Part shown: one piece after another, positions 52,281 to 62,004 of the stretch
Position numbering within the stretch: the stretch's first letter is position 1
Layout: each line of letters starts with the position of its first letter
From: Brevundimonas sp.
Lineage (GTDB): Bacteria > Pseudomonadota > Alphaproteobacteria > Caulobacterales > Caulobacteraceae
Reading direction: 5' to 3'
Assembly (NCBI GenBank): GCA_027531145.1
Contig: JAPZRF010000001.1
Location: forward strand, 1 to 64,000
DNA: 64,000 nt
Made by a program: the position numbers and the translations under genes
Notes under the pieces: generated by a model
Told to the model about the DNA's origin: nothing
Seen by the model: only the letters and a program-made list of their open reading frames with translations
Database searches by the model: none

Positions 52281-54089
52281 ATGACGACTCCCCCGATTTC
52301 GCGCATCCGCAATTTCTCCGTGGTCGCCCACATTGACCACGGCAAGTCGACGCTGTCGGACCGGCTGATCCAGGTCACGGGTGGCCTCAGCGCGCGCGAG
52401 ATGCGCGAGCAGGTGCTCGACAACATGGAGATCGAGCAGGAGCGCGGCATCACCATCAAGGCGCAGACCGTGCGCCTGAACTACAGGGCGAAGGACGGGC
52501 TCGACTACGTCCTGAACCTGATGGACACCCCCGGCCATGTCGACTTCGCCTATGAGGTCAGCCGCTCGCTGGCCGCCTGCGAGGGGTCGCTGCTGGTGGT
52601 CGACGCCAGCCAGGGCGTCGAGGCCCAAACCCTGGCCAATGTCTACCAGGCCATCGACAACAATCACGAGATCGTCCCGGTCCTGAACAAGATCGACCTG
52701 CCGGCCGCCGAGCCGGAGCGGGTCAAGGCCCAGATCGAGGAGGTCATAGGTCTCGACGCCTCCGACGCCGTCGAGTGCAGCGCCAAGTCCGGCCTCGGCA
52801 TCGAGGATGTGCTTGAGGCCATCGTTACCCGCCTGCCGCCGCCGAAGGGCGAGGCGAACGCGCCGCTCAAGGCCATGCTGGTCGACGCCTGGTACGATCC
52901 CTACCTCGGTGTGGTGCTGCTTGTGCGCGTGTTCGACGGCACGCTGAAGGCCGGCCAGCGCGTCAAGTTCATGCAGAACGGCACCGCCCACCTGGTCGAT
53001 CGGGTCGGCGTCTTTCTGCCCAAGAACACCCCGGTCGAAAGCCTCGGGCCCGGCGAGGTCGGCTTCATCACCGCCCAGATCAAGGAAGTGGCCCACGCCG
53101 CCGTCGGCGACACCATCACCGACGAGAAGAAGCCGACCGCCGAGCCGCTGAAGGGCTTCAAGGACGTCCAGTCGGTGGTATTCTGCGGCCTGTTCCCGAC
53201 CGACGCCGCCGACTTCGAGGACCTGCGCGCCGCCATCGCCCGCCTGCGCCTGAACGACGCCAGCTTCAACTACGAGATGGAGTCCTCGGCGGCGCTGGGT
53301 TTCGGCTTCCGCTGCGGCTTCCTCGGACTTCTGCACCTCGAGATCATCCAGGAGCGGCTGAGCCGCGAGTTCAACCTCGACCTGATCGCGACGGCCCCGT
53401 CGGTGGTCTACAGGATGAAGCTGCGCGACGGCTCCGAGATCGAGCTGCACAACCCGGCCGACATGCCGGACGTGATGCAGATCCTCGAGATCGCCGAGCC
53501 CTGGATCAAGGCCACCATCTTCACCCCGGACGAGTACCTGGGCGGCGTCATCAAGCTGTGCCAGGACCGCCGCGGCGAGCAGAAGGAGCTGAGCTACGTC
53601 GGCAGCCGCGCCATGGTCGTCTACGACCTGCCGCTGAACGAGGTGGTGTTCGACTTCTACGACCGCCTCAAATCCATCTCCAAGGGCTACGCCAGCTTCG
53701 ACTACGAGCTCGGCGACTACCGCCCCGGCGACCTGGTGAAGATGTCGATCCTGGTCAACGCCGAGCCGGTCGACGCCCTGTCGATGCTGGTGCACCGCAG
53801 CCGCGCCGAGGCGCGCGGCCGCGGCATGGTCGAGAAGATGAAGGAACTCATCCCGCCGCACCTGTTCCAGATCCCGATCCAGGCCGCCATCGGCGGCAAG
53901 ATCATCGCCCGCGAGACCGTCCGCGCCCTGCGCAAGGACGTCACCGCCAAGTGCTACGGCGGCGACGCCACCCGCAAGAAGAAGCTTCTGGAGAAGCAGA
54001 AGGAAGGCAAGAAGCGGATGCGCCAGTTCGGCAAGGTCGAGATCCCGCAGGAAGCGTTTATCGCCGCCCTCAAGATGGACGGGGATTGA
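52281..54089 (+). CDS. lepA: elongation factor 4 (LepA)
   Basis: The 602-aa GTPase acts on stalled or initiating ribosomes. G1 AHIDHGKSTLSD, G3 DTPGHVDF and G4 NKIDLP are intact, followed by EF-G-like domains and the LepA-specific C-terminal domain ending IAALKMDGD. The length equals standard LepA, so this is the functional copy. Its 3' end is repeated at 59557-59655 (in a longer lepA fragment) and at 61906-62004. ATG 52281 begins the conserved TTPPISRIRNFSVVAHIDH start. Confidence 0.97.
   Translation: MTTPPISRIRNFSVVAHIDHGKSTLSDRLIQVTGGLSAREMREQVLDNMEIEQERGITIKAQTVRLNYRAKDGLDYVLNLMDTPGHVDFAYEVSRSLAACEGSLLVVDASQGVEAQTLANVYQAIDNNHEIVPVLNKIDLPAAEPERVKAQIEEVIGLDASDAVECSAKSGLGIEDVLEAIVTRLPPPKGEANAPLKAMLVDAWYDPYLGVVLLVRVFDGTLKAGQRVKFMQNGTAHLVDRVGVFLPKNTPVESLGPGEVGFITAQIKEVAHAAVGDTITDEKKPTAEPLKGFKDVQSVVFCGLFPTDAADFEDLRAAIARLRLNDASFNYEMESSAALGFGFRCGFLGLLHLEIIQERLSREFNLDLIATAPSVVYRMKLRDGSEIELHNPADMPDVMQILEIAEPWIKATIFTPDEYLGGVIKLCQDRRGEQKELSYVGSRAMVVYDLPLNEVVFDFYDRLKSISKGYASFDYELGDYRPGDLVKMSILVNAEPVDALSMLVHRSRAEARGRGMVEKMKELIPPHLFQIPIQAAIGGKIIARETVRALRKDVTAKCYGGDATRKKKLLEKQKEGKKRMRQFGKVEIPQEAFIAALKMDGD
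53991..54089 (+). repeat. lepA 3'-end repeat, copy A (functional lepA terminus)
   Basis: These 99 bp encode LepA residues 571-602. Positions 53994-54089 are identical, base for base as far as I can align, to 59560-59655, and differ at four positions from 61909-62004. Confidence 0.9.
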
Positions 54090-61905: not shown

Positions 61906-62004
61906 GAGAAGCAGAAGGAAGGCAAGAAGCGGATGCGCCAGTTCGGCAAGGTCGAGATCCCGCAGGAAGCTTTCATCGCCGCGCTCAAGATGGACGGGGA
62001 CTGA
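61906..62004 (+). repeat. lepA 3'-end repeat, copy C (isolated 99-bp tail)
   Basis: This fragment still encodes EKQKEGKKRMRQFGKVEIPQ and the remaining 12 residues of LepA plus a stop. Nothing upstream matches lepA: the sequence before 61906 (GGGGCGCGGCAAGATC) is unrelated. Over the 96 bp 61909-62004 it differs from copies A and B at four positions, all silent. It is presumably the original end of the native lepA, displaced by insertion. Confidence 0.9.

Follow-up and report, generated by a model that had tools for sequence, protein, structure and literature searches.

The window, a 64,000-bp stretch of a Brevundimonas genome (designated G000 in a sample of 131 genomes of its genus), contains the 3' end of lepA three times in register, at the end of an intact gene (A), at the end of a lepA fragment (B, 59557-59655) and in isolation (C) (Table 1). 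The positions of these tails, noted in a preliminary description, were reproduced by a direct repeat search, and a BLAST search of the whole assembly with a 110-bp lepA tail matches A, B and C and nothing else. A and B align without gaps over 801 bp (53289-54089 and 58855-59655) with 87 differences, the last of which lies at 53993, leaving the final 96 bp identical, and the homology stops sharply and exactly at the lepA stop codon. Over its 99 bp, C departs from A at four silent sites, each of them a third codon position. The 96-bp identity following diverged upstream parts and the four silent differences of C, both described beforehand, are thus borne out; the truncated lepA is also present, but measures 801 bp by homology and not the 807 bp first given.

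The interval between A and B is occupied by an exporter with a Peptidase_C39 domain, whose stop codon abuts that of lepA, an HlyD-type protein and two small ORFs. The bacteriocin cassette previously proposed here holds for the exporter and its HlyD partner, while for the double-glycine peptide that a class II cassette would also contain, the match is weak and falls under the curated cut-off. A 74-bp groEL scrap, 95.4% identical over 65 bp to the genome's own groEL, stands just upstream of the lepA fragment that appears foreign. Between B and C, the proposed ABC transporter pair is confirmed for the ATPase, which carries the ABC family domain, whereas its partner is a membrane protein that matches no Pfam family. 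Homologs of this membrane protein at E 1e-30 occur in 2 of the 130 other genomes of the genus, neither at lepA, and in the fetched stretches of G103 and G091 the ABC-exporter module has no direct repeat alongside. The Pfam scan of the window cargo proteins gave no match to a recombinase family, in agreement with the lack of an integrase remarked on earlier.

Table 1. Features of the lepA region, with positions in the window and the similarity or match on which each assignment rests.
Feature	Position	Strand	Basis or remark
lepA, intact, native by similarity (A body)	52281..54089	+	First 1008 bp and 702-bp C-part closest to G066, G129, G044
lepA tail, copy A	53991..54089	+	Last 96 bp identical to B
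ABC exporter with Peptidase_C39 domain	54090..56273	-	Pfam PF03412, PF00664, PF00005
HlyD-type membrane fusion protein	56231..57556	-	Pfam PF13437
Small ORF, candidate exported peptide (prediction)	57597..57791	+	No Pfam match; beside C39 exporter
Small ORF, weak Bacteriocin_IIc match (prediction)	57971..58228	+	PF10439, E 0.0085, below curated cut-off
groEL scrap, about nt 934-1007 of groEL	58740..58813	+	94.6% to G097 groEL over 74 bp
lepA 3' fragment, copy B	58855..59655	+	Body foreign by similarity up to 59559, then tail identical to A
ABC ATPase, second module	59784..60461	+	PF00005
Membrane protein, second module	60458..61864	+	No Pfam match
Isolated lepA tail, copy C	61906..62004	+	4 silent differences from A
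tRNA-Met	62088..62164	-	No lepA adjacency seen in relatives

The surroundings of lepA vary strongly among relatives. In 100 loci the first gene behind lepA belongs to one of 27 named clusters or is a singleton (45), and a dcm-type methylase lies at most 6 kb from lepA in 18 of them. Close homologs of the window cargo were found in G120 alone among the fetched lepA loci, and in the near relative G066 the stop of the next gene lies about 13 bp past lepA, as anticipated by the proposal that relatives carry other genes at this place. The interval from lepA to tRNA-Met, which had been suggested as the site to compare, is not shared, since of the 85 relatives in which 10 kb or more could be read past lepA, none has tRNA-Met there. 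In the window, lepA adjoins the tRNA-Met/GSDH neighbourhood (62060-63530); in relatives, judged by eye, the two are separated by about 20 to several hundred kb or fall on different contigs. An attachment site in tRNA-Met was rejected because two stretches of this gene, including its 3' end, occur once each in the window when up to 3 mismatches are allowed.

The three lepA ends differ in their affinities. The first 1008 bp and the 702-bp C-part of the intact gene share the same three nearest genomes (G066, G129 and G044), and by this measure copy A is native. The body of B is closest to the lepA of G007 (93.5-93.7%; 93.7% over 702 bp), the own lepA ranking 71 of 104 as its relative, and on these similarities it is a piece of a foreign lepA from another lineage. 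The G000 tails carry a KEGKK motif that is common to G066, G129 and G044 and missing in seven other genomes compared, including G007. Thus, B appears to combine a foreign lepA piece with a tail like that of the host lineage. Among eight genomes compared, six near relatives are one base closer to C than to A and the other two, G007 and G120, are closer to A, which lends weak support to C being an old end left behind. The lineage of the B body and the purely silent A/C differences favour the earlier proposal of incoming DNA over a local tandem duplication. Carriage of the B fragment by a plasmid or phage was rejected; it matches 125 plasmid records, at 79-82% among the eight matches listed (Shinella, Sinorhizobium, Methylobacterium, Paracoccus), and 5 phage records at 63-72% identity.

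The differences between paired gene ends were sorted by codon position for 19 of 23 displaced pieces (omitting the third tail of G148, groEL of G100, the second groEL piece of G120 and uvrB of G081), giving 76/80/199 at positions 1/2/3. Under neutral decay, third positions would take 0.33 to about 0.44 of the differences, according to the mutation bias. In the four pairs at least 95.7% identical, a cut chosen after the values were known, all 15 of 15 differences are silent; the next pair, G346 at 95.6%, has 5 of 8. With a third-position expectation of 0.44, p is 4.5e-6 for 15/15 and 2.6e-5 for 20/23. The A/B profile of 18/13/56 matches that of functional orthologs (A against G007, 21/15/62; A against G129, 12/9/39). 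Such silent-biased differences point to two functional alleles rather than duplication in place, and the younger pairs probably unite ends that come from functional genes of separate lineages. The older pieces are near-neutral (uvrB of G000, 16/12/17; uvrB of G079, 9/12/8; lepA of G148, 3/7/5), and duplication in place may therefore account for these.

The cassette between A and B recurs at lepA and at groEL. In G120 the C39 exporter has a 94% identical homolog that follows the lepA end immediately and shares the stop-to-stop junction. In G097, a genome of another species, a cassette homologous to it (84% identity at the DNA level) stands behind groEL, and a displaced 3' piece of groEL, about 485 bp long, closes it. 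The 5' part of this piece is diverged and its last 349 bp are identical to the intact gene, a mosaic that the A/B pair of G000 resembles on a smaller scale. A variant of the same terminator stands between the intact groEL and the cassette, similarity extends beyond the groEL stop into this terminator, and the sequence past the displaced end resembles, by eye, that of G027, where the groEL end was matched once. Since the groEL end is native in both G097 copies, restoration of the gene by an incoming end, part of the preliminary description, is not the whole story. The lepA-type cassettes carry groEL scraps upstream of their lepA piece (74 bp in G000, 246 bp in G120), which suggests that this cassette once resided at groEL; the former stay is one that we infer only, because the scraps are internal parts of groEL and the nearest groEL of each differs. 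The G120 cassettes contain in-frame fusions of GroEL and LepA pieces (L033 4943-5446 and L034 7634-7924), which are probably scars. In one of these cassettes (L033 3862-5016) an aspartyl-protease plus PDZ protein adjoins the peptide gene, and a similar-looking ORF is found near a second, more distant cassette copy of G097 (L181 2399-5485). The latter stands beside a serine recombinase and a tyrosine integrase, and the cassette can thus also occupy a conventional island.

Similar gene-end repeats are found in other genomes. Among 122 genomes of the genus with a tail match, a second lepA tail in series is clear in five (G000, G092, G098, G120 and G121), second matches of at most 45 bp at E above 1e-4 (G042, G058, G086, G114 and one in G092) being treated as chance; the contigs of G092 and G120 begin within lepA or its tail and thus show the intact gene only in part. 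A sixth case is probable in G102, where the contig breaks inside the tail, and is counted only in the figure of 6/122. In 10 of 259 genomes from outside the genus, each scored for two candidates, a second lepA-tail match at E 1e-9 is present. Nine of these (all but G381) were inspected: four (G138, G148, G342 and G346) carry lepA tails in series on one contig, the intact lepA of G148 lying on a different contig, and in the remaining five the copies are on separate contigs and may represent assembly mixtures. The groEL 3' end is present as a second piece in four of 121 genomes (G097, G100, G120 and G091), with the matches of G100 and G120 lacking the last 50-60 bp of the gene. Second pieces of the uvrB 3' end were found in 5 of 120 genomes (G000, G075, G079, G081 and G004), not counting G035, G078 and G021, where a gap divides a single gene, nor the C78 copy of G081, which was taken as contamination. 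The uvrB pieces of G004 and G081 are 64 bp each, lack the gene end and have the same gene behind them, and so may be one event.

Although uvrB had been picked as a negative control it came out positive, and lepA as the sole site was rejected; uvrB is not a fully independent control, as the stretch fetched behind lepA includes it at 10 loci. The hotspot first proposed is not a dedicated one, groEL and uvrB ends behaving alike, uvrB even in G000 itself. Second copies of the lepA 5' end occur in 0 of 126 genomes, weak matches in G025 and G040 (68-78%, E about 1e-8) being taken as other GTPases, and the contrast with the lepA 3' end gives Fisher p 0.013 for 6/122 and 0.028 for 5/122. Pooled 3' ends against the lepA 5' end give p 0.015 and 0.026, with pooled rows that share genomes. 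The counted groEL and uvrB pieces of G100, G120, G004 and G081 miss the last 50-110 bp of the gene; pooling clear ends only (without these and G102) gives 10/363 against 0/126 and p 0.07, the 5' control being lepA only. At their left edges, the lepA pieces begin between 62 and 801 bp ahead of the stop. A self-repeat scan of 128 stretches (1.96 Mb) returned 48 pairs; by eye, those other than lepA and groEL are largely intergenic repeats or genes in tandem, and a 50-bp match in L121 (G046) that resembles a lepA tail was left uncounted. Dispersed repeats of 50-150 bp that are not gene ends were seen in L221 (4919-8604), L100, L104 and L130.

Of the 21 captured gene sets, 14 resemble toxin-antitoxin, restriction-modification or bacteriocin genes by Pfam or by eye, the Pfam scan comprising 27 proteins and the modules of G004, G075, G081, G100, G342 and G346 lying outside it. 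Named-family Pfam domains of the predicted toxin-antitoxin and restriction-modification cargo were found in G138, G092, G079, G120, G098 and the uvrB module of G000. Behind lepA, Pfam identified PIN with a MazE-like match below cut-off in G138, DUF433 with DUF5615 in G092 (a similar pair being seen by eye in G121), HepT with a nucleotidyltransferase in G120 and a methylase-containing set (N6_N4_Mtase) in G098. The other lepA sets include an SseB-like protein (G121), an N-acetyltransferase (G148), a protein that looks secreted by eye (G342), a low-GC stretch with no clear genes (G346) and the two modules of G000, one of them also in G120. Behind uvrB, Pfam matches gave a ParD and ParE pair in G000 and ParE with a ParD-like partner in G079; inspection by eye added a ParD-like ORF (G075), DNA methyltransferase-like and RelE/HTH-like ORFs (G081) and restriction-like ORFs (G004). 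The ParD and ParE pair sits between uvrB and a displaced uvrB 3' piece (G000 contig C42, L217 reverse complement 4913-5792). Behind groEL are PIN and HTH genes in G120 (Pfam), an ORF without Pfam match in G091, about 5 kb with two-component and other genes of ordinary appearance by eye in G100, and the bacteriocin-like cassette in G097.

The foreign B body that switches abruptly to an identical tail supports recombination at the lepA end, and the groEL mosaic of G097 supports the same model. The two window modules were thus probably placed behind lepA by homologous recombination between an incoming and the resident lepA 3' end, likely without an integrase. A less likely account is target duplication, in which insertion of a module past the gene doubles 60-200 bp of resident sequence and leaves both ends native. 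Long direct repeats of variable length do surround the cargo, including repeats of about 60-200 bp, one of them around the methylase-containing set of G098, and the own lepA is among the top four of about 104 for 8 of the 13 displaced lepA pieces, a result that target duplication would give as well as homologous recombination. PMC3874152 describes long variable target duplications of about 100 bp for some restriction-modification systems, an insertion mode also cited in PMC1643837, PMC3031569 and PMC2654758. In the window, however, the repeat does not have the character of an insertion-time copy of the resident target, B being foreign by its affinities and A/C differences silent only; the four most similar pairs are unlike a freely decaying fresh copy, and target duplication is strained for B of G000 and for G097.

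Gene 3' ends are typical attachment sites of integrative elements, and a CIME-like relic would arise if a tyrosine or serine recombinase had used the gene end in this way, restored the gene and later been lost, or acted from elsewhere. The sharp right edge at the lepA stop codon and the two recombinases beside the second G097 cassette copy fit such an origin, which we nevertheless regard as improbable. That the left edges vary and that lepA, groEL and uvrB, which are unrelated, all serve as sites speaks against a site-specific integrase and a fixed attachment core, though a short common core may exist; the similarity in G097 passes the groEL stop, and 25 of the 27 Pfam-scanned proteins are no recombinases, the other two being those of G097, outside any bracket seen. 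The least credible account is that the lepA region was duplicated locally in tandem and then decayed: it has the tandem order and same orientation in its favour, but B has a body from another lineage, close cargo homologs at the fetched lepA loci of relatives are confined to G120 and the A/C differences are silent, and for A/B and A/C it was rejected by the lineage and codon-position tests. Homologous recombination also meets difficulties. The older pairs look neutral, the 96-bp A/B identity could stem from later gene conversion, the end of A/B homology exactly at the stop codon is not demanded by recombination alone, the pooled 3' against 5' contrast weakens when clear ends only are taken, and a recombinase might act from elsewhere.

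Under homologous recombination, the incoming unit would be a circle, or a circle-like fragment, made of the 3' end of a conserved gene and the cargo. A single crossover inside the conserved gene end would join it to the resident gene, a conversion tract would homogenise the last 96 bp of lepA (349 bp for groEL), and the product would be an intact gene followed by cargo and a second gene end; recombination between both ends would release such a circle again. Natural transformation, a gene transfer agent, a phage or some other vehicle may have brought it in. The predicted toxin-antitoxin, restriction and bacteriocin genes captured behind lepA, groEL and uvrB have likely spread by ordinary recombination without a mobility enzyme of their own. 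More tentatively, and with somewhat less than an even chance of being right, these may be recombinase-free mobile units, addictive modules that travel as circles of cargo and a housekeeping-gene 3' end, attach by host homologous recombination in any related species, stack like growth rings and switch host gene, as from groEL to lepA, taking along scraps of the gene they left. The finding bears on how toxin-antitoxin pairs, restriction systems and bacteriocins, as small addictive modules, spread without mobile-element genes. Conserved genes seem to serve as landing sites themselves, and the displaced ends may order and date the arrivals, making this question testable in related genomes and at the bench.

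In the titles and abstract openings searched, a body of text that leaves subscription papers mostly outside, no report was found of modules with toxin-antitoxin or bacteriocin genes enclosed between ends of housekeeping genes. Tandem modules that lie between gene-end repeats and contain no recombinase are likewise a feature of CIMEs and of accretion at the sites of integrative elements; unlike these, the present arrangement has no fixed left edge, uses several unrelated genes and includes donor gene pieces of up to 801 bp. Restriction-modification units that insert with a long target duplication were reportedly described by Nobusato and colleagues in 2000, and work of Furuta from 2010 is said to bear on long target duplications of such systems. 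They resemble the modules reported here in being small addictive units with no known mobility gene and variable direct repeats of about 100 bp or more. In contrast, the second copy here derives at least partly, as it appears, from another functional allele or species, the repeat is the 3' end of a conserved gene and the cargo also includes toxin-antitoxin-like, bacteriocin-like and exporter genes. Homology-facilitated illegitimate recombination, proposed for displaced effector modules in PMC5361080, would leave one homologous and one microhomology junction; the mosaics support the homologous one. In type VI secretion orphan immunity arrays and displaced rhs 3' ends, as the same paper presents them, successive modules similarly recombine at a conserved anchor and older 3' material remains; their anchor is the weapon locus, whereas here it is an unrelated housekeeping gene that is kept intact. 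Pneumococcal transformation, according to PMC3784515, yields merodiploids in which imported DNA partly repeated in the chromosome leads to duplications by alternative pairing. Those duplications span about 100-900 kb, whereas here the gene end alone is doubled and cargo is added.
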